45,292 nt of DNA, taken from positions 1 to 45,292 of the forward strand of contig JAGLIF010000007.1 in assembly GCA_023143095.1 (NCBI GenBank), written 5' to 3'. This document shows positions 4,847 through 29,798 of this stretch, piece after piece (position 1 is the first letter of the stretch; each line of letters starts with the position of its first letter). The notes beneath the pieces are model-generated. The model ran no database searches. It was not told where the DNA came from and saw only the letters and a program-made list of their open reading frames with translations. Position numbers and translations under genes: made by a program. This DNA comes from Candidatus Altimarinota bacterium. Lineage in GTDB: Bacteria; Patescibacteriota; Gracilibacteria; UBA4473.

Positions 4847-4863
4847 TTTTCATTAAGAAATAC

Positions 4864-5884: not shown

Positions 5885-5886
5885 TA

Positions 5887-6519: not shown

Positions 6520-6522
6520 ATC

Positions 6523-7687: not shown

Positions 7688-7963
7688 ATGTCTAGATCAT
7701 CGAAAAAAGGTCCGTATGTAGATTCTCGCTTGATAGGAAAAGTTAAAGCAATGAGTGAATCAGGTCAGAAAAGAGTTATTAAGACTTGGTCGCGTTCTTG
7801 TACTATTTCACCAGAGTTTGTAGGACATACATTTGGTGTTCATAATGGAAAAGAACATATACCGGTTTTTTGTACGGAGTTTATGGTAGGACATAAATTG
7901 GGTGAATTTTCTCCAACACGACGGTTTCGAAGTCATGGAGGGAGATTGGCCAAAGGGCAATAA
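7688..7963 (+). CDS. rpsS: 30S ribosomal protein S19
   Basis: Head protein forming a complex with S13 near the A site. 91 residues with the family pattern [45 protein letters not shown], and the end [18 protein letters not shown]. Full length. It lies 27 bp after rplB and 30 bp before rplV. No Shine-Dalgarno sequence precedes the ATG. Confidence 0.98.
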
Positions 7964-7993
7964 TAAAAGCTACTAATTAATTATAAGTATTGT

Positions 7994-8320
7994 ATGAAAG
8001 CACATTTGAGACGAGTTCGAATTTCACCAAAGAAAACGAATCTGGTAGCAGGATTGGTTCGAGGGAAAGATGCTGTGGAGGCACTGAGCTTTTTGAAATT
8101 TGCACCACAAAAAGCAGGAGCGGTACTTTATAAAGTTTTGCATTCTGCGGTAGCTAATGCAGAAAATATTGGTGGAAAAATTCGAGAGAATTTAAAAATT
8201 AAATCTATTGTGGTAAACAAAGGTCCTTTTTATAAACGAAGCCAGCCTTCGACAAGGGGACGAGCATTGCCGATTAGTAAACCAACGGCACATATTTCAG
8301 TAGAATTAGAAGAAAAATAA
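7994..8320 (+). CDS. rplV: 50S ribosomal protein L22
   Basis: Exit-tunnel protein whose beta hairpin, with L4, narrows the tunnel. 108 residues. Family marks are MKAHLRRVRISPKKTNLVAGLVRGK, AVLYKVLHSAVANAEN, the hairpin with VVNKGPFYKRSQPSTRGRALPI, and TAHISVELEE. Full length, 14 bp before rpsC. Confidence 0.97.
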   Translation: MKAHLRRVRISPKKTNLVAGLVRGKDAVEALSFLKFAPQKAGAVLYKVLHSAVANAENIGGKIRENLKIKSIVVNKGPFYKRSQPSTRGRALPISKPTAHISVELEEK

Positions 8321-8334
8321 TATTTAAATAATTT

Positions 8335-8979
8335 ATGGGAAAAAAAGTTTCACCGATTTCGCTTCGAATAGGAATTACTCGTACTTGGGATTCTAAATGG
8401 TATTCTAAAAGGGGTTATAAAGAGAAATTTTTACAAGATTTAGCGATTCGAAAATTCTTGGAAAAGAAATTAGCCTCTGCAGGGATTTCTCGGATAGAAA
8501 TTATTCGAAGTGTTGGAAAAGTTAAAATCACTATTCATACGCCAAAACCAGGAATGATTGTTGGTCGAGGAGGTGAAGCTATTGGATTATTACAAAGAGA
8601 ACTTATTGGAATATTTAAAGAACTTTTTGATGTAAGTGTACAAGAGGTTCGACGACCTGATGCTGATGCTAAGTTGATTGCTGAAAATGTAGCTGGTCAA
8701 ATTACTCGTCGTTTTCCTTATCGACGAGTAGCCAAAATGGCACTGGAGAAGGCAAGAGAATCAGGAGTTAAAGGAGTTAAGATTCTTATTGCAGGACGAT
8801 TAAATGGTGTAGATATTGCTCGATCTGAGAAATATTCCTACGGACAAGTTCCATTGCATACACTTCGAGCGAAAATTGATTATGCTCATGCAGGAGCAGA
8901 TACAGCTTATGGAGTGATTGGTGTTAAGGTTTGGGTGTATCATGGGTTGGTTTTCAAAAACCAAAGTATAGAGGGGTAA
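8335..8979 (+). CDS. rpsC: 30S ribosomal protein S3
   Basis: Protein of the mRNA entry channel. 214 residues. It begins MGKKVSPISLRIGITRTWDSKWYSKRGY and has the KH domain with IHTPKPGMIVGRGGEAIGLLQREL. The C-terminal domain follows with RRPDADAKLIAENVAGQITRRFPYRR, GVKILIAGRLNGVDIARSE and GVIGVKVWVYHG. The C-terminal tail is short compared with E. coli (233 residues). The next gene lies 131 bp away, behind a repeat and a new promoter, so this may be the last gene of the first transcription unit, or readthrough may occur. Confidence 0.98.
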   Translation: MGKKVSPISLRIGITRTWDSKWYSKRGYKEKFLQDLAIRKFLEKKLASAGISRIEIIRSVGKVKITIHTPKPGMIVGRGGEAIGLLQRELIGIFKELFDVSVQEVRRPDADAKLIAENVAGQITRRFPYRRVAKMALEKARESGVKGVKILIAGRLNGVDIARSEKYSYGQVPLHTLRAKIDYAHAGADTAYGVIGVKVWVYHGLVFKNQSIEG

Positions 8980-9006
8980 ATAAAAGTTATGAAATTTTAT
9001 AAAGGT

Positions 9007-9084
9007 TGTCCTGAATTTGTTTCAGTATTTCCTTTTAAAACTACAATAAAAAAACCTTGACAGTCATTGGTTTATACATAAAAT
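9007..9084 (+). promoter_or_regulatory. Repeat remnant and promoter between S3 and L16
   Basis: GTCCTGAATTTGTTTCAG (9008-9025) is a degraded copy of the GTCCTGAAC...GTTTCAGGA repeat hairpin. After it comes a promoter: TTGACA (9057-9062), 16-bp spacer, TAAAAT (9079-9084), then CGCTCGGCTT. ATG 9111 lies 26 bp after the -10. The -10 and the following segment closely match the L6 promoter. Confidence 0.75.
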
Positions 9085-9110
9085 CGCTCGGCTTATTCTT
9101 ATTAAATACG

Positions 9111-9527
9111 ATGCTACAGCCAAAAAGAACGAAGTACAGAAAACTTCATCGATTGAGATCTCAGAACAAAGGAGTTGCAACGAGAGGTTCAGTAATTTCG
9201 TTTGGGGAAATTGGGCTAAAGGCTGTTACTGCAGGAGAAATTACTGCACGACAAATTGAGGCAGCTAGACGAACAATTGCACGATCTGTTAAACGAGGTG
9301 GAAAAGTTTGGGTTCGTATTTTTCCTGATAAAGTGTTAACTGCCAAATCAGGAGAAGTTCCAATGGGATCGGGTAAAGGTGCTCCAGATAAATGGGTAGC
9401 TCAAGTTCTTCCAGGAAAAATTCTCTTTGAGATGTCTGGTGTTGAGGAAGAATTGATGCGAAAAGCAATGAAACTGGCCTCTTATAAATTGTGTGTAAAG
9501 AGTAAAGTTATCGGAACTGAAATTTAA
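9111..9527 (+). CDS. rplP: 50S ribosomal protein L16
   Basis: Large-subunit protein at the A-site tRNA elbow. The start is ATG 9111, giving [21 protein letters not shown]; an in-frame TTG at 9057 would fall on the promoter -35 and is rejected. 138 residues, usual length. Motifs: the KRTKYRK start, [65 protein letters not shown]. First gene of the second unit; rpmC starts 4 bp downstream. Confidence 0.98.
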
Positions 9528-9531
9528 TAAC

Positions 9532-9720
9532 ATGAAAATTCAAGAATTACGGCAATTGACACAGAAGAAACTGAATGACAAGTTGGCGACTTTGCGTCGG
9601 GCGTTGGCAGTAAAGCGTTTTCATTCGAAAACAGGACAAGATCAAAAAACTTCAAATATTCGAGAGTTGAAAAAAACGATTGCTCGAATTCTTACTATTC
9701 TTCGTAACGAGAAAAAATAA
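9532..9720 (+). CDS. rpmC: 50S ribosomal protein L29
   Basis: Small two-helix protein near the exit tunnel. 62 residues: MKIQELRQLTQKKLNDKLATLRRALAVKRFHSKTGQ, then NIRELKKTIARILTILR. It keeps the family pattern of an LxxEL-like first helix and the IRxLKKxIARxxTxLR second helix. Its TAA stop shares one base with the rpsQ start (TAATG), which suggests coupled translation. Confidence 0.95.
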   Translation: MKIQELRQLTQKKLNDKLATLRRALAVKRFHSKTGQDQKTSNIRELKKTIARILTILRNEKK

Positions 9721-9953
9721 TGATTACCAAAAAAGGCAGTATTGTAAAAATATCCGGAAAAAAGACGGTAAAAGTAGCTGTAAATGAATACCGTATGCAT
9801 CCAAAATATAAAAAGCAATTTCGAATTACAAAAAACTTTTTGGTGCATGATGAGTCAGAAACAGCCAAGGTGGGAGATGAAGTGGTAATACAACAAGCTC
9901 GTCCTGTATCAAAGCGTAAGTCTTGGGTACTTGTAGACTCTTCAAAAAATTAA
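9720..9953 (+). CDS. rpsQ: 30S ribosomal protein S17
   Basis: Primary 16S-rRNA-binding protein of the body of the small subunit, with an OB fold. 77 residues. It shows [66 protein letters not shown], all usual for S17. The ATG overlaps the rpmC stop by one base. The usual HP[KL]Y motif is present as HPKY. Confidence 0.96.
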
Positions 9954-9970
9954 GTGAAAAACAGAAAAGA

Positions 9971-10339
9971 ATGATTCAACATATGACACGGCTTCGAGTA
10001 GCAGATAACACAGGTGCAAAAGAGGTGATGTGTATCAAAGTGTTGGGAGGTTCTAAACGACGATATGCTCGAGTTGGGGATGTTATAGTAGTGACTGTAA
10101 AAATGGCGGCTCCAAAAGGAGTGGTAAAGAAGAAATCGGTAGAAAAAGCAGTTATTGTTCGACAAATTTCTCCTATTCGGAGAAAAGATGGGTCGTATTT
10201 GAGATTTGATGAAAATGCGGTTGTGATTGTTAATACTGAAAATCAGCCAAAAGGGACTCGGGTATTTGGTCCTATTGCGAGAGAACTTCGGGCTCGAGGT
10301 TTTCAAAAGATTATTTCACTAGCTCCTGAAGTATTGTAA
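9971..10339 (+). CDS. rplN: 50S ribosomal protein L14
   Basis: Large-subunit interface protein. ATG 9971 gives the usual start [28 protein letters not shown]; an in-frame upstream TTG inside rpsQ would add an unlikely leader. 122 residues, standard length. Later motifs: [39 protein letters not shown] and [27 protein letters not shown]. It starts 17 bp after rpsQ and ends 2 bp before rplX. Confidence 0.98.
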
Positions 10340-16008: not shown

Positions 16009-18477
16009 TTACTTCTCAGCTTCCACGATAAGTTTAGCGGCTTGACCGCGTGTAAGGTATCTGTTTGGCCAGAAGCGACCATCCGAGAATCCTTGCACCA
16101 TTTTTTGATTAAATGCGGTTAGAACCCAAAATTTTTCCCATCCAGGTGTATCAGGGAAAGGGAGGTTGGTTGGTGGTGTCCAGTCTTCTGGTTGAATTAC
16201 CCCTTTAATTGCTAATAAAATTTTTACGGCTTCTGCTCTTGAGAGATTTTGGTGAGGACGAAAGGTTTGGTCAGAATATCCGTGGATAACATTTTTCTCT
16301 GCTAAGAAATTAGCTGCTTTCGCAATTTTGGAGTTTTCATCTAAATCTCCAAATCGGTATACATTTTCTATCATTTTCCATTCTTCTCCATAAAAATATT
16401 GAGCGGACATTTTAACAAATTCTCCTCGAGTAATTTTTTGATCAGGGAGTGCATTGCCGTTTGCCGATAAAGGAAGAATAAATTGGTCAGCAAGAATTTT
16501 TAAATACCCATTGGCCCAATGATTTGTATGAAATCCGTTCCAGAAAAAATAGTCAGATGGAAGAGCTTTTTCTCGAGAACCTTCACGAATAGAGAGACAT
16601 CGTAAATCTTTATGACAAAAATCAATTTCATTTGCCAGTCCAAATAGTTCGCCTAAAAGTTCAGGGAAAGCTAAAAACAAATCTTTTTGTGCAGGAGAGA
16701 AAGGAGCGAGTGTTATTAACTTTTCAGTCTTATTTTTTTCATGAAAATTGAATTGTTGCCAAACCTTTTCATTCAAATAAAATGGTATATTTTTGATAAA
16801 TTTAGCAGTAGATGGAGGGTAGAATATTTCAGGATTTTCTAGTGCAAAAATTTCTCGCCAAAGTTCTTTTTTTGAAGTTTGTGCAAGCACATTCCTTACT
16901 GTAATGGGATTGGTTGGTTCGGAGAAGATGGAAGTTTTTATTCCAAAAGTTCGAGCAATTGAAATAAGGGCTTTTATCGATTCTTCTGAAATCAGAGATG
17001 GATCATTGAGTTTGCAGAAAGTTCTTAAAATGTGTGCTATTTTACGGGCTCCCCAGAGACGGGGAAGAAAATTTTCCAGTTCACTGTGAGTAGGAGTTTT
17101 CCCAGAAAATTCTCGACTGACAAAAAGCGGAAAAACATAAGGGGAAAAGAATTTTTGTACTAGAGGTAAAAACTCACTTTGTTTTGGATATTTTTGTTGA
17201 AAAGATTTGGCTTCAAGAGGGGGAAGTTGGGCGTTCCACTTTTCCCAAAACTCTTCTGATTCGATGAAAAAATATGGGGTACGGAATAAGTTTAAACGAT
17301 TACCGCCAGAGTGGTGAGTCAAAAGATCTAAATCGTTTTTATCAAAAGAAAAATCGAGAGTAAAAATGGGAAAATCCCATGTCTGAATGGTTTTGAGCTC
17401 ATCAGAGGAAAGAGATAAATCTTGAAAATCTCCTAAAAGCAGTACACCAAGATTTGGTGTTTTTTTAAAATTTTCTAAAATTGTAAAGATTTTTCCAAAA
17501 TCGGTTTTTTCGGTAGGTTTCGTTTGTTTAAAAATTTTGAAAAATTTTTCACGCAAGTCTTGTGAATTAGATTCAAATCCATCTGTTTTTTCTTTGATTT
17601 CTTTTTGGTTAAAAAAAATGAGTTGAATAGTTGTTGTTTTTTGGATTTTTTCTAAAAATTCTTGAAGTATGTCTCCGATTCGGTTCCAAGGAGATCCAAA
17701 AACGGATCCTGATGTATCTACTAATATCAGGATTTTTTCAAAATTTTGTGTGGGATGGTCTGTTTTTAGGTTTCCATGATAGATGGCATTAAATGCTGGA
17801 AAATTTAAGGCAGGATTTTCTGTTTCGGAAAAGAAAAAAGAAAAGTTTTCTTGAGGTATAAAATTAGTTTCTTTTTTCATCCATACGATTTGGTTTTCCA
17901 ATCGAAAACTTTTGGCGACGCTTGAAAAAATAGGTAAGAAATGGAGAATTGGACGAGGACGAATGATTGAAAGTACTAACTCAAAATTTTTGCTTAAAAT
18001 CTCATCATTTAAAAAAAGTTCGGAAAAGAAAAAATCATGTATGAAATCTAGTTTTTGTTGGTATTTGAGTTTTATTTCTACTGGTTTTTTACTTGGAAGT
18101 TCAAATGTATCGCTTACGAATGTTTTTGGCCATTTGGAGGGAGATAGTCGAAAGAATTGAACCATTTTGTGTTTCTTGGCTTTTTCAAAAAGAAAGTTTA
18201 ATTTTTTCTGACCTGTCAGTATTTCAAAATCTTTTCCATTAGCATTTACAAAAAATTGTATGTTTTGAGCTGTTGAATTTAAAGGGAAAAAATATTCCAA
18301 GTTTTGTGTGACTTCGGAATTGTTTTGAATGGTTTCGACGATTTCTATTTGAAAAATATCCTGATTGATTTCGATATGAATTTTTTGATCTAAGCGTTCA
18401 AAAATAGGGGCATCGACAAAAAAGGCAGAAATGGGATTAATCCAACAAAAACTAAGACCGAAAAAAATTTTTTTCAC
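16009..18477 (-). CDS. Exported VIT / von Willebrand A protein with C-terminal SLH domains
   Basis: 822-residue surface protein; start GTG 18477 (MKKIFFGLSFCWINPISAFF, a signal peptide of about 20 residues). Domains in order: a VIT-like beta domain (about 25-215), a vWA domain (about 246-430) opened by the metal-site motif DTSGS (254-258), a helical linker, then three S-layer-homology repeats (about 645-822) with ITRGEFVKMSAQYF, LSRAEAVKILLA and LTRGQAAKLIVEAEK. SLH repeats bind cell-wall polymers, so the protein is expected on the cell surface with its vWA domain exposed for binding. VIT plus vWA resembles inter-alpha-trypsin-inhibitor-type proteins found across bacteria. It lies downstream of the PKD/pilin operon on the same strand, but a repeat of about 120 bp separates them. 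Confidence 0.85.
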   Translation of the reverse strand: MKKIFFGLSFCWINPISAFFVDAPIFERLDQKIHIEINQDIFQIEIVETIQNNSEVTQNLEYFFPLNSTAQNIQFFVNANGKDFEILTGQKKLNFLFEKAKKHKMVQFFRLSPSKWPKTFVSDTFELPSKKPVEIKLKYQQKLDFIHDFFFSELFLNDEILSKNFELVLSIIRPRPILHFLPIFSSVAKSFRLENQIVWMKKETNFIPQENFSFFFSETENPALNFPAFNAIYHGNLKTDHPTQNFEKILILVDTSGSVFGSPWNRIGDILQEFLEKIQKTTTIQLIFFNQKEIKEKTDGFESNSQDLREKFFKIFKQTKPTEKTDFGKIFTILENFKKTPNLGVLLLGDFQDLSLSSDELKTIQTWDFPIFTLDFSFDKNDLDLLTHHSGGNRLNLFRTPYFFIESEEFWEKWNAQLPPLEAKSFQQKYPKQSEFLPLVQKFFSPYVFPLFVSREFSGKTPTHSELENFLPRLWGARKIAHILRTFCKLNDPSLISEESIKALISIARTFGIKTSIFSEPTNPITVRNVLAQTSKKELWREIFALENPEIFYPPSTAKFIKNIPFYLNEKVWQQFNFHEKNKTEKLITLAPFSPAQKDLFLAFPELLGELFGLANEIDFCHKDLRCLSIREGSREKALPSDYFFWNGFHTNHWANGYLKILADQFILPLSANGNALPDQKITRGEFVKMSAQYFYGEEWKMIENVYRFGDLDENSKIAKAANFLAEKNVIHGYSDQTFRPHQNLSRAEAVKILLAIKGVIQPEDWTPPTNLPFPDTPGWEKFWVLTAFNQKMVQGFSDGRFWPNRYLTRGQAAKLIVEAEK

Positions 18478-18527
18478 ACATTAATTTTAAATTAACAATG
18501 CTTTTGAATCAAATAATTTTTCAAACA

Positions 18528-18600
18528 CAAAATATCGTAGATCCCGTTTCAAGAACGGGAAGACATTTTTTTATTGTGAGTTTATTTATCAGTGTTTCCT
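18528..18600. repeat. Composite repeat between two surface-protein genes
   Basis: Core CAAAATATCGTAGATCC, hairpin CCCGTTTCAAGAACGGG, GAAGAC, then the end sequence TTTATCAGTGTTTCCT. Its last base is the first base of the complement of the TAA stop of the PKD gene at 18600-18602. Confidence 0.75.
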
Positions 18601-20756
18601 TATTTAATTTCAATTTCTTTAATTGTTTCAGCAATAATATTATGTTGATCAACTAGTTGAAGCTTAATTTTATAAATTCCTGGTGTTTTATAAGTATGTG
18701 TTATCGGTTTTGGATTGTATTGTTTTTGAGTGTAACCATCTCCAAAATCCCAAGAGTATTCTTTAATAAGTCCTTTGGAAGTATTGGGGTTGAATTCTAC
18801 TTCTAGAGGAGCTTTTCCTATTTTGGGGGTAAAATTGAAATCAGATTTTACAACTGGTATTCGCACAGAAACGAGAGTGTCGGTATAACTAGTTTTTCCT
18901 TTAGAAGTAAGGATTGTAAGTTTTACTGTAAAATTACCAATAGTTTCAAAAAGATATGAGATTTTTGCACCATAATGGATGGGGTCTCCGTCTGGGAATT
19001 CCCAAATATAATCTACAATTTCTCCTTCATCAACGGCTGAACCAGAACCGTCGAAGTCAACGCGAAGCGGAACTTCTCCAGCGGAAGGTTCTGTGTGGAT
19101 TTTAGCTCGAAGTCCAGATCGTTCTACTTTAACTATTTGGATTTTTTCATAGGTTTTTTCATCAGCATCGATAATTATGAGTTTAACTTCATAGATGCCG
19201 GCTTTTCGGAAGGTATGTTTTACCGCCTTGGAAAATTCATCAATAATTCCATCATTTTCAAAATCCCACTGCCACTCAAAAGCGTTTCGAATTTCAGATT
19301 TAGAAGAATCGAAAGAAACATCAAAAGGGACAACTCCGTAAAGGATTCCATCTTTATTTGTTGTGGCAGGTGTTGTTCTGATAAAAAGATTAGCTTTGGA
19401 ATTATCAGGCGAAACTTTAATTGTCTTTGTAATTTTATTTCGTTCCCCTAAGTCATTTTGAACAGTGAGGGAAACTTCATATTCGCCTGGATTTCTAAAA
19501 ACACGCTGCAATTTTCTTCCTGTAAAAGGTTCAGTGTCACCAGTTACAAACCATTCAAATCTAGTGATTTGTCCTTCTTTTACAAAAGAATTAGAACCGT
19601 CAAAAGAAAGTTTTAGTGGAGCATATCCTTCAAATGATCCATCGGCAGTGATTTCTGCACGGAGACTTCCTTCTGGGTTTTTTACATTAATAATGGTTTC
19701 AACAACATCAAAGTCATGGTTTGATCCCGTAACACGAAGTTGAACTTTGTATTCACCGAATTGAGTAAAAATTTTTTCAACAGATGGTGTTTCTTGTCGA
19801 ATTTCAAACTCACCATCTCCGTCTAAATCCCATTCGTAAAGAATAATTTCACCATCAGGATCACGAGATTCAAGAGCGTTGAATTCAACTTTAAGTGGAA
19901 ATGGTCCAGAGTCTGGAGAGGCGATAAGAGAAGCGAGTACTGATTCATTTGAAATAATAACCAATTTTTTCGAAAGAAAAGAAACCTCTTTTACTTCTTT
20001 TTCTGAAAAATAGGAAACATTGGCCGTTACTGGAAATCGTCCACCGTTTTCGCCTTTGTCTAAAAAACGATGTGTTACTTTTGGACCAGAACCATCAACA
20101 ATATTATCTCCGTTAAAATCCCAATTAATTTGTCGGATTAATTCTGGATTAATGTTTGCAAAAAGTTGTTCGCCTATATCAAAACTGATTTGTATTGGAG
20201 CACTTAACCCAACAACATTAGAAGGCTCAGTATTGATCAAGGATTCATCATCTGTTTGTACTATTTCTCCATGAAGCGTAGAAATAAACCAAAAAAAGAA
20301 AACCCAAATACCGCAAATAGAAACAAACAGTAAGGAATAAAGTCCTGCTTTTGCAAAAATGGTTTTTCGGTTAATAGCATCTTTATCTGTCATTAATCCT
20401 TGGAAGAGGAAAATGAGAGACAAGATGAGTAATATAAGTGCTAACAGGCCGAAAATAGCATTGGTCATTGTTTGCAATAAACTTTTAAGACCAAGGGCTT
20501 TTATGCCAAGTGTTTCAAAAAGAGGATTTGATACATTTCCACTAACAGTACCCCAAAAGACGAGACCATAAAAAAGAGCTAAAAGAACAAAACCAATACC
20601 TAAAATTCCTAAAAGAAAAGTTTGTGGTCGCATTTTTTTTATTTTCTGTTGCGGCTGTTCAGCCTTTTCTTTTTTTATCGAAACATTTTTATCTTCCTTT
20701 TTTTGTGGAAAATTTGGATTGATAGAATCGTTGTTTGGTAAGTTTTCTTCTAGCAT
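18600..20756 (-). CDS. Membrane-anchored protein with about six PKD domains
   Basis: 718 residues, last gene of a four-gene minus-strand operon. The N-terminal 45 residues are charged and probably cytosolic. Three membrane helices follow (about 46-70, 97-119, 134-160). The rest is outside the membrane and made of about six PKD-type beta domains (from about 185 to the end). Each has the diagnostic WDF.GDG or WDLDGDGE-like strand and a VTLT/VKLxI final strand (for example ISFDIG...INWDFNGDN, YEWDLDGDGEFE, YSWDFGDGYTQ). PKD domains are protein- or glycan-binding spacers. The stop codon is shared with a dispersed repeat. The gene upstream ends 65 bp away. No catalytic domain is seen. A structural part of a cell-surface machine is likely; that is inference from context. 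Confidence 0.82.
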   Translation of the reverse strand: MLEENLPNNDSINPNFPQKKEDKNVSIKKEKAEQPQQKIKKMRPQTFLLGILGIGFVLLALFYGLVFWGTVSGNVSNPLFETLGIKALGLKSLLQTMTNAIFGLLALILLILSLIFLFQGLMTDKDAINRKTIFAKAGLYSLLFVSICGIWVFFFWFISTLHGEIVQTDDESLINTEPSNVVGLSAPIQISFDIGEQLFANINPELIRQINWDFNGDNIVDGSGPKVTHRFLDKGENGGRFPVTANVSYFSEKEVKEVSFLSKKLVIISNESVLASLIASPDSGPFPLKVEFNALESRDPDGEIILYEWDLDGDGEFEIRQETPSVEKIFTQFGEYKVQLRVTGSNHDFDVVETIINVKNPEGSLRAEITADGSFEGYAPLKLSFDGSNSFVKEGQITRFEWFVTGDTEPFTGRKLQRVFRNPGEYEVSLTVQNDLGERNKITKTIKVSPDNSKANLFIRTTPATTNKDGILYGVVPFDVSFDSSKSEIRNAFEWQWDFENDGIIDEFSKAVKHTFRKAGIYEVKLIIIDADEKTYEKIQIVKVERSGLRAKIHTEPSAGEVPLRVDFDGSGSAVDEGEIVDYIWEFPDGDPIHYGAKISYLFETIGNFTVKLTILTSKGKTSYTDTLVSVRIPVVKSDFNFTPKIGKAPLEVEFNPNTSKGLIKEYSWDFGDGYTQKQYNPKPITHTYKTPGIYKIKLQLVDQHNIIAETIKEIEIK

Positions 20757-20821
20757 TTTGGGAATATATTTATTTCTTTTACTTTTACTTTATTCTTTTA
20801 GAAAAAAAGAAAAAGAAGTCT

Positions 20822-23800
20822 TTAATAATTTTTTTCTTGAATTTTAATGATAAGGCTATCGGAAATAGTAGAAATTCCGTCAGAAACAGTTAATCGTAAA
20901 GTATGAAGGCCTTCTCTTTTGAATTGAAGAGTTATGTTTTGTCCAGATCGTTTAATTTCTCTTCCAACTTCCCATTCAAAAAACAAAGGTTTATCAGATG
21001 AATGCTGCAATCTTCCATAAAAGAAGAATTTTGTATTAACAGTTCCAGTAATATCAGCAAAAACAAAGGCATCATTTTCTGGATCAGGATTGCTTTCTAT
21101 ATTTGATAATTGTATATCTATTTGATCTAATTGTAGTTGTAAAAGCCTTTGTTTTTCTGGATCTGTTTCTTTTTCAAGCTCTTTAAGTTTTTGATTTCTG
21201 ATAAATTCTAACCGTTCTTTAGACCATTCGTTTTTTGCAAAAAAAGGATTGGAACCTAGTTTTTTTAATTCTTCATTGATTTGATTGATCTCTTCTTGTA
21301 AGAGTCTTCGTTTTTCTGGATCTGTTTCATTTTCTAAGTTGGCCTGTTTTTTTTCTAAAACCTCCTTTAATTGTATTTCGATAAGAGAATCGAGTCCTTT
21401 TTTCATAAAACTGGTAAGTTTTTTATTTAATCCTAATTCCTCATTGATTTGATCAAGTTCTTTTAGTAGTTGTTTTCGTTTTTCTGGATTTGTTTCTTTA
21501 TTTAGTTCTGCTTCTTTTTTTGTTTTTAATTGTTCAAGAATTTGAGATTGTTTCTTCAATGTTGAAGGAGTTGTATTACTATTTTGATTATTGACTAATG
21601 GTTTCAATTCGGATTCTATCTGTGCAATTTCGTCTAGTAAAGACTGATATTTTGCAGGATCAGTTTCTGTAGCTAATTGGAATTCTTTTTCTTTTATTAA
21701 TCCATTTAATTCAGATATTTTATTTTTAATTGCAGAAGAATTTAATTCAGAAGCAACGATTTCAAGTGTTTTAATTTCGTTATCGATAGCGTTTATTTTT
21801 TGTTGAATTTCTTTTCTTGCCTCTGGGTTAGATTCTTCTTGAAACATTTTCAAAAGGTCTTCTTTATCTTTTTTAAGTGCTTGGATAGTTCCTTTTATAG
21901 ATTCTGCTTTGAGAGAAAAAGGAGTTTCTGAAATTTTTTCTAAACTTTTATTAAGTTCATCAATTTCTGCTTGAAGAGCATTTTGTTCTTCTGTTGTTTT
22001 GCTAGCTGAAAGTTGTTCTTGTTTTTCTTTTAGAGTATTTTCAAGAATATCTTTTAATGGTGAACTAAAAGGATCGTAGCTATCAATCATCTTTTCAGAA
22101 GAAACAATGCCTAATTGCAAAAGGTCTCCTTGGGAGATATTTTCTTTTTGAGAGGTTGTTTCAATTGCTAAAAGGGGAGCTAATTCTTTTTCTAGTTGAT
22201 CAAGTTCTTTTGATAAAATTTTATATTTTTCAGGATCAGTTTCATTGTTCAATTGAGCTCTTTTATTTGCTATTGATTCATTTAGTTTATTGATGGTTTC
22301 TATTGTATCAATTATAGTGATACTTACAGTATCTGTGGCGGTGAATTCTCCGTCAGAAACAGTAACATTAACAGTATAGATTCCTGGTTCAGAATATTTG
22401 TAAGAAGCATTTTTTATGTATAGTTTCCCACCGTCGCCCATATCCCAAGAATAAACTAGATAATCATTATTAGGATCAGTAGTCTCTGGGAAAAATCTAA
22501 AAACAGTATTGATACTTCCTTTATTGTTACTTTCGTTGATTTGAATGATTGGAGCTAGATTTTCTTCAGGAGGAGGTGCATTTGGATCAACTTCTGTTAC
22601 TGTTATCGAAATAGAATCTTTTGCGGTGAGTTCCCCGTCAGAGACATTGGCGGTTACAGTATAAGTACCAGGTTTATCGTATTTGTGAGAACTAGATTGT
22701 CCGTAGGATTTAAATCCATCACCCATTATCCAAACAAAATCTAAATTATCATTGTTTGGGTCTGAGGTGTTGAGGAGGAAACGAAAAAGAGTATTAGTAT
22801 CTCCTTGTTTTTGAATTTCATTAATCTTAATAATTGGAGGCAGATTTTCGTCGGTTTTTTTCTCTGTTATTGGTTTGTTTAATTCGTCTATTTTATCAGT
22901 TGAATCAGTTTCTTCTACTTTAATGGTTATGTTATCTTCGGTAACAAGTTCTCCGTCTGAAACTTTAACATTAACAGTATAGGTTCCTGGTGTTGCGTAT
23001 TTGTATGCTACATTTTGTATATACATTTTTCCACCATCGCCCATATCCCAAACATAAGAAAGATAGTCATTGTCAGGATCAGTAGCGTCTAAATAGAAAG
23101 AAAAAAGAGTAGAAGTATTTCCAATGGTTTTATTTTCTCTAATTTGTGCTGTAGGGGCTTGATTTCCTTCAGTTGCAGTTGTTTCACCAGTTGTTTTATC
23201 TTCCGAAATGGTTATATCCATAGAAGCTTCTGTTTCATCGATACCATCAGAAACTTTTAATTTAACTGTAACTTTTCCAGTTTCAGTGAATTTTTTTGAG
23301 ACATTTTGAGTAAACTTTTGTTCTCCATTAGGGAATGTCCATTCATATTGTAAATAGTCATTATCGTCATCAGAACCTTTTCCATAAAATAAAAAAGTAG
23401 TGTCGAGATTTCCTAGATTACTTGGGGAAACTTGAATATAGGCTGTTGGAGTAGCATTTTCCATATTGCTTGTCACTTCTAGTACATTGTCAGAAATTTT
23501 TACTGTTTGTCCGCCTGAATTATCAACAATGGTTACTTTAAAAGTATAATAATGTTTTCCAGCGGTTTGAGATAAATTAAAAATAGCGTTATCAACAGTT
23601 GTGATTTGAGCAAATTTAGTACTAGCGTTTTCTATTACTTCAAAACGGTATTGTTCAATTTTTCCGTCAATATCATTGGCATCGACAGAAACGGTTACAC
23701 TTAGTGCTCCTAAAGTGGGATCTTTTTTAAATTTAATAGAGGTTATTTTAGGAGGAGTATTTTCCATTATAACTGTTACTGTTTCTTCATCTTTACTATT

Positions 23801-24328
23801 AGATTCGCCTTTTTGAGAAGCGATAAGTTTTATTGAATATTTGCCTGCTTTTGTTATGGCGTAAGGAAGTTGTTCACTTGTATAACTTTGTCCGTTTACT
23901 ATCCAAGAAATATTAACATTTTTGGTTTGTCCTTCTTTATCAAATGATTCTGAAGAAAAATTGATAGTTTGATCGGCTGTTATGTAAATAGTTTTCGAAA
24001 GTGTATCCTTACCATCTACAGATACTTTTAAGATAGCAGTTGGTATTCCATCGTTTGTAACATAGATAGGTTTCTTAACAGTATTTTCTCTTGTTCCAGA
24101 TGAAACCTTTAGAGTAACTTCGTTTTTTCCTGTTTTGTTGAAAATATGTTCAACTGTAGGACCATATTTAGTTTCTCCATCAGGGAATGTCCATTCAAAA
24201 TTAGTGGCATTTGGACTATTGGCTTTAAAGGTTGCGACTTTTCCTTTTACAACAGAATAAACAGAAGCAGCTTGAGCAAGATTGCTAAAGAGACAAGATA
24301 GAACACAAAAGAATAGAAGTTTTTTCAT
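20822..24328 (-). CDS. Giant secreted PKD protein with coiled-coil hairpin repeats
   Basis: 1168 residues with a clear signal peptide (MKKLLFFCVLSCLFSNLAQA). About seven PKD-like beta domains follow (roughly 20-680), with NFEWTFPDGE, YEWTFPNGEQ, YVWDMGDGGK, FVWIMGDGFK and YSWDMGDGGK. Residues about 685-1065 are helical: seven related units with the pattern ETDPEK-x-LL-x-ELDQI-x-EL, each a likely helix-turn-helix hairpin. One last PKD-like domain closes the protein (about 1075-1168). No membrane helix or cell-wall signal is visible after the signal peptide. It sits between a pilin-like/PKD protein and the membrane-anchored PKD protein, 22 bp and 65 bp away. A rod or stalk is plausible, but no enzymatic role can be read. 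Confidence 0.82.
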   Translation of the reverse strand: MKKLLFFCVLSCLFSNLAQAASVYSVVKGKVATFKANSPNATNFEWTFPDGETKYGPTVEHIFNKTGKNEVTLKVSSGTRENTVKKPIYVTNDGIPTAILKVSVDGKDTLSKTIYITADQTINFSSESFDKEGQTKNVNISWIVNGQSYTSEQLPYAITKAGKYSIKLIASQKGESNSKDEETVTVIMENTPPKITSIKFKKDPTLGALSVTVSVDANDIDGKIEQYRFEVIENASTKFAQITTVDNAIFNLSQTAGKHYYTFKVTIVDNSGGQTVKISDNVLEVTSNMENATPTAYIQVSPSNLGNLDTTFLFYGKGSDDDNDYLQYEWTFPNGEQKFTQNVSKKFTETGKVTVKLKVSDGIDETEASMDITISEDKTTGETTATEGNQAPTAQIRENKTIGNTSTLFSFYLDATDPDNDYLSYVWDMGDGGKMYIQNVAYKYATPGTYTVNVKVSDGELVTEDNITIKVEETDSTDKIDELNKPITEKKTDENLPPIIKINEIQKQGDTNTLFRFLLNTSDPNNDNLDFVWIMGDGFKSYGQSSSHKYDKPGTYTVTANVSDGELTAKDSISITVTEVDPNAPPPEENLAPIIQINESNNKGSINTVFRFFPETTDPNNDYLVYSWDMGDGGKLYIKNASYKYSEPGIYTVNVTVSDGEFTATDTVSITIIDTIETINKLNESIANKRAQLNNETDPEKYKILSKELDQLEKELAPLLAIETTSQKENISQGDLLQLGIVSSEKMIDSYDPFSSPLKDILENTLKEKQEQLSASKTTEEQNALQAEIDELNKSLEKISETPFSLKAESIKGTIQALKKDKEDLLKMFQEESNPEARKEIQQKINAIDNEIKTLEIVASELNSSAIKNKISELNGLIKEKEFQLATETDPAKYQSLLDEIAQIESELKPLVNNQNSNTTPSTLKKQSQILEQLKTKKEAELNKETNPEKRKQLLKELDQINEELGLNKKLTSFMKKGLDSLIEIQLKEVLEKKQANLENETDPEKRRLLQEEINQINEELKKLGSNPFFAKNEWSKERLEFIRNQKLKELEKETDPEKQRLLQLQLDQIDIQLSNIESNPDPENDAFVFADITGTVNTKFFFYGRLQHSSDKPLFFEWEVGREIKRSGQNITLQFKREGLHTLRLTVSDGISTISDSLIIKIQEKNY

Positions 24329-24333
24329 TTTTA

Positions 24334-24350
24334 TTTTTTCAGTGTTTCTT
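24334..24350. repeat. End-sequence-like repeat between two operon genes
   Basis: TTTTTTCAGTGTTTCTT resembles the end sequence TTTATCAGTGTTTCCTT. It fills most of the 21-bp gap between the PKD gene start (24328) and the preceding TAA stop (24350-24352). With only partial identity, descent is uncertain. Confidence 0.4.
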
Positions 24351-25972
24351 TAAGGGGTAATTTCAAAATCAACAGAAAGGGTTGTTTGTACTTCTTGAGT
24401 TTGTTCAACAGAATCTGATTTGAGAGTTTGTCCATTAACTAATTGTGTGACAATAAGTTCAATGTTTTTAACGCCTTCAGTAATAAATTCATGAGTGAGG
24501 GTTGAGTTAGCACTTGTTTTAGGAATGCCATTAATAGTCCATTTGTAATAAAGTGAATTACTTTCTCCATAAATATTTTCACTCTTGCTAGCATCAAAGA
24601 TGTATTCACCAGGTTTGTTAGTGTTTTTGGTAGAACGAATGACAAAGTCGGCAGATGGTTTATCACTAAGTATCGTGATAGTTTTAGAGGTTTTTCCAGA
24701 GACAGTAACTGTATTTTCTACTTCAAGTGAAACTTCATAAGTTCCAGCTTCTGAGAAAGTAACAGCGATAGTTTTTCCAGTAACTTCACTAAAGCATCCA
24801 TTTCCACCTGAACAAGTCCATTTGTAATTACTAATGGATCCGATACTGGTTCTAGAAGAGGCGGCATTAAGGGTAATAGAATCACCAACTGTAGTGGAAG
24901 TTTTACTTGCAGTAAGAGTGGCGGTTGTTCCTCCAACAATAAGTGTTTTCTGGAAGGCATAGGTTTGTCCATCTATACCTTTAGTAATACTTCGAAGAGA
25001 ATATGTTCCTTCTTTCCCGTAAGCATGGTTGGCTGTAGGTGTTGATGAGCTTAAAATAGCCATTAGACCGTCACCAAGATCAATTTTAGAATCTCCTTCA
25101 ATGCTCATTCCAATAGTGACACCAGCAAGAGCGCTTTCAAGAGAAATTACAGAGGTATCAGCGAAGTTTTGAACATCACCTCCAGAAATGGTGATACCAT
25201 TTTGGAAAGAAAAAAGATCTTCTACTGAAACATCACCAGCTTTACCACCAGTATTATTGAAACCACCAGCACCGCCAGTATTATTAAAACCACCAGTACC
25301 ACCAGTATTATTGAAACCACCAGCACCGCCAGTATTATTGAAATCACCAGCACCACCAGTATTATTGAAACCACCGGCACCACCAGTATTATTGAAATCA
25401 CCAGCACCACCAGTATTATTGAAACCACCGGCACCACCAGTGTTATTAAAACCACCGGTACTACCAGCACCGCCAGCACTTCGATCATCTCCGCCAGATC
25501 CAGCTTGAGTAAGAAGTGTGTTTACGAGTGCAAAAGAAATCAAAATAATAATGATTCCAATAACAGCATATATAATAATTTTTTTAGATTCTTCGATTTT
25601 ACTATCTTCTCCAAGTGCGGTTACATATAGGTATCCAGCATAAATTATGGCGGCGGTTGCGATAAGGCCAAGAAAAGATAGTGTAAAATTTAAAACATTG
25701 AGAATAAATCCTCGAGCAGATGTATTATTTCCAATTTGATTGAATTTCCCTGGAGCAGGTAAGACAAAAGAGCCATCTGGTCCAACTCCTTCTCCAGTTA
25801 GGGAGTCCCAAGCATCCTCAAAAGTATTACCAATTGTATCAATTTGATTAGCGGTTTCTAATGTTGATTTGGCAAAGTTAGAAATGGAATCAAGAGTTCC
25901 AGCAAACGATGGAGTAGTGATAAAAAAGCAAGAAAGGAGGACAAAAGCGATACCAAGAGCGAATTTTTTCAT
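24350..25972 (-). CDS. Pilin-like (TrbC/VirB2-type) membrane protein with Gly/Asn repeat and PKD domains
   Basis: 540 residues. A signal peptide (MKKFALGIAFVLLSCFFITTPSFA) is followed by a two-helix hydrophobic hairpin (about 89-118 and 131-154) of the kind named T4SS pilin or Mbov_0395-type. The connecting loop has GYLYVTALGEDSKIEESKK. Next are eight 9-residue repeats built on GGFNNTGGA (about 170-244), which may be a flexible linker. Then come two or three PKD-like beta domains (about 265-535). The loop and second helix closely match the next upstream protein, so the two are paralogues in their hairpin part. A pilin-type hairpin carrying a long extracellular adhesive tail is unusual. Start ATG 25972, 34 bp after the upstream gene. 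Confidence 0.82.
   Translation of the reverse strand: MKKFALGIAFVLLSCFFITTPSFAGTLDSISNFAKSTLETANQIDTIGNTFEDAWDSLTGEGVGPDGSFVLPAPGKFNQIGNNTSARGFILNVLNFTLSFLGLIATAAIIYAGYLYVTALGEDSKIEESKKIIIYAVIGIIIILISFALVNTLLTQAGSGGDDRSAGGAGSTGGFNNTGGAGGFNNTGGAGDFNNTGGAGGFNNTGGAGDFNNTGGAGGFNNTGGTGGFNNTGGAGGFNNTGGKAGDVSVEDLFSFQNGITISGGDVQNFADTSVISLESALAGVTIGMSIEGDSKIDLGDGLMAILSSSTPTANHAYGKEGTYSLRSITKGIDGQTYAFQKTLIVGGTTATLTASKTSTTVGDSITLNAASSRTSIGSISNYKWTCSGGNGCFSEVTGKTIAVTFSEAGTYEVSLEVENTVTVSGKTSKTITILSDKPSADFVIRSTKNTNKPGEYIFDASKSENIYGESNSLYYKWTINGIPKTSANSTLTHEFITEGVKNIELIVTQLVNGQTLKSDSVEQTQEVQTTLSVDFEITP
25243..25460. repeat. 27-bp tandem repeat array, eight units, in coding sequence
   Basis: Units encode GGFNNTGGA on the minus strand, two of them GDFNNTGGA, in an alternating order (GG, GG, GD, GG, GD, GG, GG, GG). 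DNA units differ by a few silent changes. The copy number is likely to vary by slippage. Confidence 0.85.
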
Positions 25973-26006
25973 TTGAATGATTTATTTTTGTTTTTAGTTT
26001 TTAGTT

Positions 26007-27437
26007 TTAAAAAGCGGCTTGCATAACTGTGTTTACTATGGCATAAGCGCTTAGTATAGCTAAGATTCCGATTATAACCCAGAGAATAATTTTTTTGGCT
26101 GTTTCGATTCGACCGTCGTCTCCAATAGCAGTGACATATAAAATTCCAGCCCATACGATGGCTAAAACTGCCATAAGTGCAGCAATAGGTAATAGGAATA
26201 AGGTCCAACCAATTATCAGCATTTTTAAATCTCGTTCTTTCGAAATATTATTATCCAGATACATTTCTGTGGTGTTTGCTCCACCATAAAGTCCATCACC
26301 GTCAAAGATTGGAGCAGTGAGATATGGAGTTGCACCTTCTTCTAACATCATTTCTTCTAAAATTTCTTCTTCTAAAACGATAGCTTTGCCAGTCTTTTTC
26401 TTTTTTGTGCAAGCTTCTTTTTTCTCTTCGCCAGAAGCTTTATCACAAGCAATCACTTCTGCACTATTTGCATAAGTTTCTGCTTTGGTGATTAGCTCCT
26501 CATTAAGTTTATGTGTCATTCCAAGACTATTGAAAAGATAATCAATTTTTGGTTGTACTTTTTTTTCCTCAGCTACTGTTAGGGCTTCTTTGTATATAAT
26601 TTTTGGTATAAGGGTTATATTATCTTCCGAATTTGCATCCTTGATTTCATCAATAAGTAAATTAATATCGTCTGTTACCTCAGTTAGATCTTCTCTACTT
26701 CGAATTTCAAATTCACGGTCTTTAAAATCATAATATAATTGCTTGAAGTCATTCCGATTTTTCTCTAGTGTTTCCCAATTTGTAACTACTTTATTTATAT
26801 CAACATTCATATCAGCAACAGCATCATTAACTTCTTTGTTTTGGTCTATTATATCATCCTTGGCATCTTCCTGTTGTTCTTTTATGTCTTTTAATTGTTT
26901 ATTTGCATCTTCTAGACACTTAGCTTGATTAGGTTTACCTATACAAGCTGCCATAGCGGCCTTAATATTTTTTGCTTCAGTGTCTAATGAACCTAGCTTA
27001 TCTTCTGCTTGTTTTAATTTTTCCACTTCTTCATCTGCTGTTTTATCTGCTGCGTCATCTTCTTTAGTTTTAACTTCCTTGAATTCACCTTTTTTTGTGG
27101 TAAGTTGCTTCTGTAATTTCGTTTTTTCAGCACTTGCGTCTGTAATATCTCCTTGTATTTCGGTTAGTTCTTTATTTAGAGAAATGAGTTGGTTTGCACG
27201 ACTAGGATTTCCTTTTTTTATTTCTTCTTCAATGGTTGTTATTGTTGCGGTTATCGTTGTTTTTTTAATTGTTAATTCTTTTATTTCATTTTCTTGATCT
27301 AAAATGTCAATATTTATTGAATGAATATCGTCGTCTATATCATCGGCTGTATCACTCCAGAACCAGGCATTTGTGTTTTCTGAAATAAACAAAGAGAAGG
27401 TAAGTATTAAAATTGCAGAAATAAATAGTTTTTTCAT
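26007..27437 (-). CDS. Secreted coiled-coil protein ending in a pilin-like two-helix module
   Basis: 476 residues, first gene of the operon. Signal peptide (MKKLLFISAI-like start, cut near NTNA at 24), then about 230 residues of strongly charged coiled coil (about 30-260) with CIGKPNQAKCLED inside, and a further helical part to about 390. The end carries the hydrophobic hairpin (about 400-430 and 445-472). Its linker and second helix, AGILYVTAIGDDGRIETAKK onward, match the hairpin of the next gene product. Here the module is C-terminal, whereas in the neighbour it is N-terminal. Four cysteines may form disulfides outside the cell. A surface filament or anchoring role is inferred from the module and the operon. 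Confidence 0.8.
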   Translation of the reverse strand: MKKLFISAILILTFSLFISENTNAWFWSDTADDIDDDIHSINIDILDQENEIKELTIKKTTITATITTIEEEIKKGNPSRANQLISLNKELTEIQGDITDASAEKTKLQKQLTTKKGEFKEVKTKEDDAADKTADEEVEKLKQAEDKLGSLDTEAKNIKAAMAACIGKPNQAKCLEDANKQLKDIKEQQEDAKDDIIDQNKEVNDAVADMNVDINKVVTNWETLEKNRNDFKQLYYDFKDREFEIRSREDLTEVTDDINLLIDEIKDANSEDNITLIPKIIYKEALTVAEEKKVQPKIDYLFNSLGMTHKLNEELITKAETYANSAEVIACDKASGEEKKEACTKKKKTGKAIVLEEEILEEMMLEEGATPYLTAPIFDGDGLYGGANTTEMYLDNNISKERDLKMLIIGWTLFLLPIAALMAVLAIVWAGILYVTAIGDDGRIETAKKIILWVIIGILAILSAYAIVNTVMQAAF

Positions 27438-27458: not shown

Positions 27459-27487
27459 ATTATACCAGAGATTGGGTAAAAATTCAA
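27459..27487 (-). promoter_or_regulatory. Strong promoter of the pilin/PKD operon
   Basis: On the minus strand: TTGAAT (27482-27487), 17-bp spacer ending in TGG, perfect -10 TATAAT (27459-27464). TGG before the -10 makes an extended -10. The start codon at 27437 leaves a leader of about 15 nt. Confidence 0.75.
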
Positions 27488-27523: not shown

Positions 27524-27680
27524 AAGGAAACACTGACAAAAAAATTCGCAACAAAAAAATGTCTTCCCGTTCTTGAAACGGGATCTACGATATTTTGTGT
27601 TCCTTGTTATTATGAAAAAAAGACAGAGATCCTGAAACAAGTTCAGGACGACAATCGATTCGTTCAGAAAGACAGTTTAT
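27524..27680. mobile_element. Composite repeat, best complete copy in the window
   Basis: Order of parts: end sequence AAGGAAACACTGACAAA (27524-27540), hairpin CCCGTTCTTGAAACGGG, core GGATCTACGATATTTTG (27581-27597), hairpin GATCCTGAAACAAGTTCAGG, then a tail with TTCAGAAAGACAG. The copy at 1-103 has the same order and ends in the inverted form of the end sequence, so a full unit would have terminal inverted repeats. Here the right end is missing, cut by the purL-like gene end at 27686. Confidence 0.65.
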
Positions 27681-27685: not shown

Positions 27686-28723
27686 TTAAAAAATTTCTCT
27701 GAGACAATTTTCCCAAAGCGTTTTATATTCTGCTAGGTTGTTTTCAAAAATAACCTTGTTTTTATGTGTTATTAGCAGGTCAAAGTCTTTGGTTGTTTTG
27801 CCTATTTCAATGGCTTCTTCTCCAAAAATTTCTTTAATTTTATCTGGGTTGGAGGTGCTGATTATGGCGCCAAGATCTTCCGCAAACAAAAACTGTGGAA
27901 CGGCTTGATCAGCAGGAATATCTATTTGTACACCGATGTTTTTTTCAAAGGTGCTTTGACACAATGCAGCAAAGAGACCGCCTCTCAAAATAGGATTGGC
28001 AACTGAAACAATATTTTCGTTAGCAGAAATTCGGAGTCCTGAGCATAGTTTTTTAAGTTTTTTATAATTTGTCTCTGGGACATGAGAGTCTTCTTGTTTA
28101 AATAATCGTAAAAATTCAGAACCTCCCAAGTTTTGTGAGCGGGAACCTATTACGAAAATGGTTTCTTCCGTTTTTTGAAAACCAATTTGTGGGACAGTTC
28201 TTGGATTGTCTATTCGTCCAAAAACAGAAATGATAGCACTTGGGGGAATAGATTTTTTGGCACATTCATTGTAAAGGGATACATTTCCCGAAACGATAGG
28301 GATATGAAGGGTTTCACAGGCGTTTTTTACTCCTTCAATGCCTAAAACAAGATCTCCCATTTGATCTGGTTTTTCTGGATTTCCAAAATTAAGACAGTCT
28401 GTGGCTGCCAACGGGATTCCTCCTGTGCATGCAATATTTAATACGGCTTGCGCTATGGCATTTTCTGCAGCGTCTTTTGCTGATATTTTTGCAAGATTTG
28501 TGTTTCCTCCAATACCGATAACTACAGCAATTTGAGAAGATTTTTCGTCTAATTCTGGGAAATCTCTAAAACAAGTTGTAATAGAAGCGGCAACTTTGCC
28601 TCGTTCATGTACGGTATTTCCTTGAACATTTTTATCATAGGTTTCATAAATCGGTTTTTGGCTCGCTACATTGGGGGTGTTCAATATTTTTTCAAAAGCG
28701 AGAGAAAGGGGGATTTTTTTCAT
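27686..28723 (-). CDS. C-terminal half of phosphoribosylformylglycinamidine synthase (PurL-like)
   Basis: 345 residues matching only the second half (second AIRS-like N and C domains) of PurL, normally about 730-740 residues. Telling stretches: NTPNVASQKPIYETYDKNVQGNTV, AENAIAQAVLNIACTGGIPLAATDCLNFGNPEKP, PIVSGNVSLYNE, and GGLFAALCQSTFEKNIG. PurL makes formylglycinamidine ribonucleotide in purine synthesis; in solved PurL structures the working site is in the first half and the second half binds a structural ADP. No first half is found in the 250 bp upstream, and the ATG at 28723 is natural. It may be a half-gene partner encoded elsewhere, a repurposed protein, or a remnant. No other purine gene is in the window. 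Confidence 0.8.
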   Translation of the reverse strand: MKKIPLSLAFEKILNTPNVASQKPIYETYDKNVQGNTVHERGKVAASITTCFRDFPELDEKSSQIAVVIGIGGNTNLAKISAKDAAENAIAQAVLNIACTGGIPLAATDCLNFGNPEKPDQMGDLVLGIEGVKNACETLHIPIVSGNVSLYNECAKKSIPPSAIISVFGRIDNPRTVPQIGFQKTEETIFVIGSRSQNLGGSEFLRLFKQEDSHVPETNYKKLKKLCSGLRISANENIVSVANPILRGGLFAALCQSTFEKNIGVQIDIPADQAVPQFLFAEDLGAIISTSNPDKIKEIFGEEAIEIGKTTKDFDLLITHKNKVIFENNLAEYKTLWENCLREIF

Positions 28724-28796
28724 TATTTTCTTTGGTAGTAGATTACCAGAAAAAATTTATTCAACAAAATTTTATTTTTCATACTTATTTCTCCCC

Positions 28797-28851
28797 AGTT
28801 CGAACTGTATGTTCCCCAAGTTCGAACTTTATGTTCTCTCCAGTTCGAACT
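28797..28851. promoter_or_regulatory. Three spaced copies of the palindrome AGTTCGAACT
   Basis: Copies at 28797-28806, 28819-28828 and 28842-28851, 22 and 23 bp apart (about two helical turns). They lie between the purL-like start (28723, minus) and the peptidase-like start (28980, plus), which suits an operator array for one or both genes. The binding protein is unknown. Confidence 0.55.
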
Positions 28852-28979
28852 TAAGACTTAAAGAAATATCTTGTAACAATAATTTGACATATATGTAAAA
28901 AACAATTAATAAATAATAAGAAAATAAAATAAAAACCAATAAAGACAAAGTGATTTTTTGATTATTTTATTTTTTAAAA

Positions 28980-29798
28980 ATGTTTTTAAATTTGTTGGTT
29001 TTGATTCTTTCCTGTTTCAATTTTTCTACAGAAATGGGTGATATGCATGCTTCATCGGAAAAACAATTAATAAAAAGAAAAATAGCTGTTCCATTTCTTC
29101 GGATAAATGTTTCTTTGCCTTGGGAAGGGCATTTTTCAGCAAATTCATTTCGTTCTCCAAGTGAAAGATTGGAATTAAAAAGGGTAAAAAGAACATTGGA
29201 AAAAACGATTTTAGCCTTGCCAGCAAACCATGTTGAAAGATTGGAATCTTTAGAAGTGCGAAATAAAAGTCATATTTCTCGCGGGATGGCGAATTCCAAA
29301 AAGATGATTTTACACACAGGAACAATTGAAAACCAGAAAGAGTTGTCGGCTGTTTTTATTCATGAAATGGGGCATATTGTAGATTTTGGTTATTTTCGTG
29401 GAAAATCGTCTTCAGGGAGATCTTTGTTTATGGATAGGAAGAAATTTATTTTTAATGATGATTTGAGTTTAAAGTTTTATCAAATTTCTTGGTTAAGGGA
29501 GAAAATGGTTAAAAAGACTGTTGCGAGGCAAGATTTTGTTTCTGGGTATGCGAAAAGTGATTGTTTTGAGGATTTTGCAGAAAGCTATCTTTTTTATCGA
29601 ATTCATGGAGAAAAATTTCGAGCACTTATGGTAAATTCTGAGAAGTTGCGGCAAAAATACTTCTTTATGAAAAAGTTTGTCTTTGATGGGAAGGAGTTTC
29701 AAAAAGAAAAGGAAGTAATTGATTTTCTTGGGGAGTTGACTTGGGATGTGACTCTTTTGACATATTCAAAAGAGAATTTGATGGCAGTGAGTGATTAG
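28980..29798 (+). CDS. Secreted zinc-metallopeptidase-like protein
   Basis: 272 residues with a short signal peptide (MFLNLLVLILSCFNFS). The zinc motif HEMGH is at 128-132 (AVFIHEMGHIVDFGYF), and a likely third ligand comes about 65 residues later in SDCFEDFAESYLFYRIHG (E201). HExxH plus a downstream DxFAE is the pattern of gluzincin-type peptidases, including the lethal-factor-like (ATLF) group. The substrate is unknown. A TTGACA (28884-28889) is present upstream, but no convincing -10 was found at 16-17 bp. The gene stands alone on the plus strand, divergent from the purL-like gene and followed by repeats. Predicted site of action: cell envelope or outside. Confidence 0.7.
   Translation: MFLNLLVLILSCFNFSTEMGDMHASSEKQLIKRKIAVPFLRINVSLPWEGHFSANSFRSPSERLELKRVKRTLEKTILALPANHVERLESLEVRNKSHISRGMANSKKMILHTGTIENQKELSAVFIHEMGHIVDFGYFRGKSSSGRSLFMDRKKFIFNDDLSLKFYQISWLREKMVKKTVARQDFVSGYAKSDCFEDFAESYLFYRIHGEKFRALMVNSEKLRQKYFFMKKFVFDGKEFQKEKEVIDFLGELTWDVTLLTYSKENLMAVSD

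Follow-up and report, generated by a model that had tools for sequence, protein, structure and literature searches.

The window analysed here, a stretch of 45,292 nucleotides from a Candidatus Altimarinota bacterium, is one contig (C9) of a 1.2-Mb genome that is 97% complete. Four genes lie on its minus strand, as do all features below unless stated otherwise, and are called here A (26007..27437, 476 aa), B (24350..25972, 540 aa), C (20822..24328, 1168 aa) and D (18600..20756, 718 aa). They are separated by gaps of 34 bp (A/B), 21 bp (B/C) and 65 bp (C/D), and a check of the open reading frames confirmed the coordinates and strand given for them by an earlier sequence-only reading of the window. 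That reading also assigned the operon one strong promoter. A consensus scan places a promoter-like site, TTGAAT-17-TATAAT with a TG extended -10, at 27459..27487, 21 bp before the ATG of A, which is a good match in a sensible place; because such sites are no more numerous in the region than in shuffled sequence (48 versus 43 ± 7), a single strong promoter is only plausible.

Behind D lies a gene for a VIT/VWA protein with two SLH domains (16009..18477), assigned by Pfam and by blastp and gene positions in the family. The same gene directly follows D in at least 11 family genomes, either overlapping it or within ∼120 bp, and because of this conservation the unit in the window probably extends past 18600 to include it, running from 27437 to 16009. 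The two genes are separated by a REP-like element with a terminator-like hairpin (18503..18600), and a second, inverted copy lies upstream of A (27525..27601, plus strand). We considered an invertible element or switch built on these flanking inverted repeats and dropped it, and no switch is claimed, since the pair are copies of a dispersed element that is not specific to the operon, two of its 46 matches in the genome.

Protein A consists of a signal peptide, a coiled-coil ectodomain and a C-terminal pilin-type hairpin, as determined from its reading frame, Pfam and hydropathy. The hairpin (residues 408-472, 26022..26216) scores 33.6 bits against the VirB2-like Pfam family PF18895 (T4SS_pilin), for which the curated cut-off is 26.6 bits, and E 7e-25 in an HMM search. 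In B, a signal peptide is followed by a hairpin of the same family (residues 90-154, 25511..25705; 27.2 bits, HMM E 3e-24), a Gly/Asn repeat, two PKD domains and a terminal lone strand. The repeat was detected by TRF as 8.3 tandem copies of a 27-bp unit (25244..25467), and codes for a Gly/Asn-rich linker of the GGAGGFNNT type. Both proteins thus score as members of T4SS_pilin, and hydropathy and sequence give both the VirB2-like topology of signal peptide, two helices and a short charged cytoplasmic loop. Homologues of A, recognized by the hairpin region, were found in 58 of 60 relatives. The Pfam matches for A to D included no family for the prepilin N-methylation motif of type IV pili, a sequence search of the PDB returned neither a solved homologue of the hairpin nor a solved pilus relative, and comparison with PHROGs gave nothing useful.

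Protein C carries a signal peptide (residues 1-20, judged by eye; 24269..24328), 6-7 PKD domains, one of them terminal, and a long helical region; it has no membrane helix beyond the signal peptide, and is predicted to be secreted. D begins with a cytosolic tail and three predicted membrane helices, and continues with PKD-like domains, of which 5-6 were called; the features were drawn from its reading frame, Pfam and alignments, and the protein is collinear from end to end across the class. PKD domains exceed the Pfam cut-off in B, C and D. These results bear out the domain plans that had been read from the letters: a coiled coil with a C-terminal pilin-like hairpin in A, an N-terminal hairpin with Gly/Asn repeat and PKD domains in B, the hairpin common to A and B, a PKD/helical protein of 1168 residues in C, and a PKD protein anchored by a triple helix in D.

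D has an extra first helix in place of a signal peptide, and its membrane helices 2 and 3 (residues 87-160, 20277..20498) form a degenerate hairpin of the pilin type, which in the window's D is seen only through profile comparison. Alignment by hhalign with the A/B hairpin profile gave a probability of 92% (E 6e-7) that reflects mostly the first hairpin helix, with the second aligning poorly; controls reached at most 2.1% for 20 column shuffles, 6.5% for the other parts of D, and 5% for unrelated membrane proteins. The pilin HMM matches D directly (E about 1e-6) in two genomes, G031 and G049 (orthologues L193 and L194), where D sits within a long pilin array. By these profile matches, A and B carry the T4SS_pilin hairpin and D a diverged one, making three hairpin proteins in one gene set. 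A Foldseek search with a model of the D N-terminus (mean pLDDT 79) returned nothing below E 1e-3, and its matches to a Kir channel and to Ig domains were regarded as fortuitous or generic.

Among named records, D is matched best in metagenome-assembled genomes of Candidatus Gracilibacteria, Peregrinibacteria and Peribacteria, and full-length collinear D is confined to these; beyond them the PKD part alone matches, and such PKD-only matches outside the class (most loci from L117 on) were left out of the D counts. A profile of the D N-terminal module, matched over the membrane helices and first beta domain, detected ∼73 of 145 class genomes with E values no higher than 2e-27. Some ten others, most of them TGA-recoded, gave weaker matches over that stretch; none of ∼108 genomes from other Patescibacteria classes, in a phylum-wide sample of 116, matched at 1e-10. 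Nearly every family genome with enough sequence (G000-G019) has the order A-B-(C)-D. At 45 of 60 distinct D loci the gene before D encodes a pilin-PKD protein (28), a PKD protein (13) or a pilin (4), counting the next gene on the same strand, nearly always within ∼105 bp, and ignoring small unassigned ORFs. Outside the family, class members usually have two triple-hairpin proteins followed by a hairpin/PKD giant of ∼1,400-2,000 aa and then D; in the window's genome the triple-hairpin proteins are on another contig (C7). One family has two four-hairpin proteins followed by A, a hairpin protein of 172-183 aa and D, the TGA-recoded lineages retain the order giant-D, and families f2, f15 and f17 have D elsewhere. 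The class-typical block is often divergent from one encoding SecE, NusG, L11 and L1, genes that we named by eye from sequence. Genes of 450-520 aa upstream in recoded lineages were rejected as multi-hairpin proteins, since no pilin HMM match supports this and their predicted helices, one or two each, are N-terminal; Pfam identifies one as an M23/SLH protein, and the others resemble solute-binding proteins by eye.

As judged from these gene neighborhoods, the order B-(C)-D is conserved across class Gracilibacteria, and because it recurs across the whole class it reflects more than chance. The sequence-only reading had named the neighborhood in relatives as its own test, which its proposal survives. 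Its suggestion of a system distinct to this lineage was both too narrow, the core being common to the class, and too broad, since the hairpin belongs to the known VirB2-like family of Patescibacteria; fusions of the hairpin to large ectodomains are also present in other classes of the phylum.

Most class members have a single giant protein in place of B and C, and profiles of the B C-terminus and the C N-terminus hit consecutive stretches of these giants, with the B profile ending and the C profile starting at residues 561/564 (L056), 512/518 (L043), 514/520 (L045), 679/688 (L070) and 893/900 (L073). The sequence of the fused L043 protein across the joint is ...TLAVDFTVPVEPLDKDEIFTFRAQSPGAEAYAWTF..., while in the window B ends in ...TLSVDFEITP and C begins, after its signal peptide, with ASVYSVVKGKVATFKANSPNATNFEWTF. 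Together, the profiles and joint sequences assign strand A of a PKD domain to B and strands B onward to C, so that the last 10 residues of B (24353..24382) provide strand A, the first PKD domain of mature C (24050..24268) is without it, and the signal peptide of C is interposed at the fission point. An AlphaFold model of the fused L043 stretch (mean pLDDT 91.5) contains two domains of beta-sandwich type, and the F of VDF takes part in a beta bridge. The next strand with at least three residues begins thirteen residues further on, placing the cut in the A-B loop. From these alignments, B and C derive from one giant that was cut inside a single PKD domain.

On the D tree, the genomes with the fission form one clade of seven (support 100/99), with G003 apart, which corresponds to two changes. 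Each of the clade's six complete B proteins retains the tail, while identity in D falls to ∼50% or less, and five of the six have a V/A-D-F motif; the tail of G005, PNIKIIQ, is off the VDF motif, and the B end of G003 is atypical. Mature C is without strand A in every case. By sequence, the clade thus presents a donor-strand pattern, an Ig-like domain short of strand A and a partner with a lone strand. The retention of the tail in all six proteins argues that it is functional, and we tentatively propose, at somewhat less than even confidence, that the split domain is an assembly joint through which B and C would snap together outside the cell, rebuilding the one-piece arm of a host-contact machine linked to a type IV secretion system (T4SS). 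Only a little less likely is that the fission was instead a random event that left B and C as independent proteins and the VDF tail as a functionless relic. The shortness of the tail, its divergence in G005 and the single-residue bridge that is all the fused-domain model gives strand A are in keeping with a relic, whereas its persistence at this level of divergence in D, together with the consistent absence of strand A from mature C, speaks for the joint.

The D gene also lies near T4SS genes in three lineages. In G066, D (L186, 5601-7754), a 71-aa ORF, PrgI (8081-8635) and TrsD (8646-9326) follow one another on the same strand within 4 kb; in G024 and G036 (L073, L074) PrgI-TrsD is convergent to D within ∼5 kb; and in the recoded G122 (L191) D lies ∼16 kb from PrgI-TrsD, with a pilin after TrsD. 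PrgI (VirB3) matches PF12666 above the family cut-off and TrsD is VirB4-like. Proximity within 5 kb occurs in only three of the ∼70 genomes with both genes, two of the three being in one family, and by our own estimate ∼0.6 such cases would be expected by chance among some 70 genomes. In the window's genome, PrgI-TrsD, VirB4 and a multi-hairpin pair are on contigs other than that of the operon. PrgI/TrsD loci of other classes have, within them or nearby, hairpin proteins with large ectodomains (L207; and L208, with the order PrgI-TrsD-...-922 aa-548 aa), and a genome outside the class (L211) has the hairpin fused to SLT transglycosylase and amidase domains. A published survey reports 1,135 Patescibacteria assemblies in which VirB2-like pilins are encoded close to virB4, and the absence of a relaxase from most Patescibacteria T4SSs (PMC12102498). 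Other studies describe an epibiont for which pilins encoded in the T4SS cluster are essential (PMC10633639), and host-attached Paceibacteria whose highly expressed secreted proteins include T4SS pilins and a PKD protein (PMC10936435). On balance, these gene arrangements favor a tie between the module and the Patescibacteria T4SS.

From hydropathy and the charged loops, A, B and D are all predicted to have their bulk on the same, outer side. Each hairpin would be lodged in the cytoplasmic membrane, its charged loop facing the cytosol, and the PKD chains of B and D, like the coiled coil of A, would thus project outward; C would be secreted through a signal peptide of its own. With its final strand, B would then fill in the first PKD domain of C, so that the anchored half would hold the secreted half and the two would make up a long arm of ∼8-9 PKD units plus helices in the window, which in relatives is one chain of ∼900-2,900 aa. 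The hairpins may pack against the T4SS, both its PrgI/VirB3-VirB4 core and the VirB2-like pilins, the arms may hold or recognize the host cell during contact, and the downstream VWA/SLH protein may add an S-layer-anchored partner. Taken whole, this scheme of T4SS-packed surface arms on VirB2-like hairpins, with B and C clipped together for host contact, is one to which we give an even chance. PKD repeats are generic spacers, and no adhesive or ligand-binding domain was identified in the module proteins.

A less likely scheme is purely structural: the proteins would form a membrane-tethered PKD coat, or stalks resembling an S-layer, in which the hairpin is a mere double-pass anchor and there is no role in secretion or in a pilus. 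PKD domains do occur in an archaeal surface-layer protein (1l0q), the SLH protein is conserved behind D, the near-fixed build of six PKD domains in D looks structural, and in most genomes D is apart from T4SS genes. A coat does not account as readily for the pilin arrays, PrgI and TrsD that adjoin D in several lineages, or for the hairpin ectodomain proteins within T4SS loci of other classes. We consider it improbable that A or the short pilins are drawn out of the membrane to polymerize as a VirB2-type filament, on which B, C and D would serve as adhesins at the tip or along the side; the hairpin family is VirB2-like, and arrays of multi-hairpin and single-hairpin proteins adjoin the module, but the ectodomains of A and B, at ∼400 aa, are unlike the short known VirB2 pilins, no polymerization signal was identified, and no solved pilus relative emerged from the PDB. 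That the genes are neighbors without a common function, held together by chance or general genome compaction, is very improbable: compact genomes do retain many neighbors, and three families have D elsewhere, but the order is kept over many families, recoded lineages included, mostly with gaps of 0-105 bp, and domain fusions and fissions remain in place.

The arms proposed here share their hairpin domain, phylum and arrays, and in some lineages T4SS proximity, with the Patescibacteria VirB2-like pilins (PF18895; PMC12102498). Those pilins are mostly 100-200 aa, whereas here the hairpin bears PKD chains or a coiled coil, and three hairpin proteins form a fixed module; the survey text has no occurrence of PKD (PMC12102498). 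A and B resemble the Mbov_0395-family pilin-like conjugal transfer protein (NF045849) in the hairpin while falling below its cut-off, which the triple-hairpin protein of the window's genome exceeds (51 versus 40 bits); unlike A and B, that family of mycoplasma-type conjugative elements spans ∼80 positions and is without an ectodomain. The PamR pilus system (CPR_pilus_PamR, NF058578) was rejected, as its similarity to D (23.5 bits) and C (21.7 bits) is weak, at the PKD level, and far below the cut-off of 300, and 41 relatives contained no member. Among PDB folds, the tandem at the B/C junction is matched best by solved parts of a giant chain, the Aureispira grappling hook GhpA (9fly, E 4e-5); the match is generic to PKD/Ig tandems, and anchoring and organism differ, leaving a functional analogy drawn from the fold only. 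As in donor-strand complemented pili of the chaperone-usher and type V kinds, one protein is predicted to supply the strand that an Ig-like domain of its partner lacks, but here the partners are the halves of what was once a single PKD domain, in one pair only, with no chaperone or usher seen and no polymerization implied.

The hairpin family itself is already known. We found no description of the class-wide module, the hairpin in D or the split PKD joint in the searchable literature, a scope that leaves out most subscription journals and all bioRxiv preprints. The Gracilibacteria and Peregrinibacteria that carry the module are tiny and probably host-dependent, and the module would bear on the way in which ultrasmall episymbionts hold on to and exploit host cells; in one cultivated member, pilins of the T4SS cluster are essential. 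The module would link VirB2-like hairpins to long surface arms through a defined, class-wide gene set, and the split PKD domain offers a testable assembly rule. These results also suggest that 'pilins' with large ectodomains are worth looking for when Patescibacteria T4SSs are annotated.

The neighbours of the module differed between lineages. In Peregrinibacteria, a block of secE, nusG and ribosomal protein genes often lay divergently on its upstream side (loci L072-L076 and L083-L116). In the window family, the module and the secY ribosomal block were convergently oriented. In recoded lineages, which read TGA as sense, the position immediately before the module was taken by an M23 peptidase/SLH-type protein and by an apparent solute-binding protein (L168:1499-2977 and L176:1038-2606).

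Upstream of gene A in the window is a PurL-like gene (27686-28723, 345 aa), which matched PurL only in its C-terminal half, at positions 380-722. Homologues of near-equal length were also found upstream of A in 7 other family loci, and these matches suggest that PurL is split or partial in this lineage. Three tandem copies of a 22-bp unit (28785-28852) separate this gene from a putative metallopeptidase gene (28980-29798). Copies of a REP-like palindromic element, dispersed with 46 matches across the 1.2-Mb genome, lie on each side of the operon in mutually inverted orientation (18503-18600 and 27525-27601).

The T4SS_pilin hairpin was also found in another Patescibacteria class (L211), joined to SLT transglycosylase and amidase domains in one protein and to SLT and GDSL lipase domains in a second (genes at 4826-6646 and 7922-10030). 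The window genome encodes two triple-hairpin proteins on a separate contig, C7 (L061:13054-15786), near a secreted 643-aa PKD protein with no obvious membrane helices (L061:7312-9243). In most class members, a pair of this kind is immediately upstream of the giant, the one-piece counterpart of B and C. A VirB6-like part has been reported absent from Gracilibacteria (PMC12102498); the triple-hairpin proteins could be candidates for this component.
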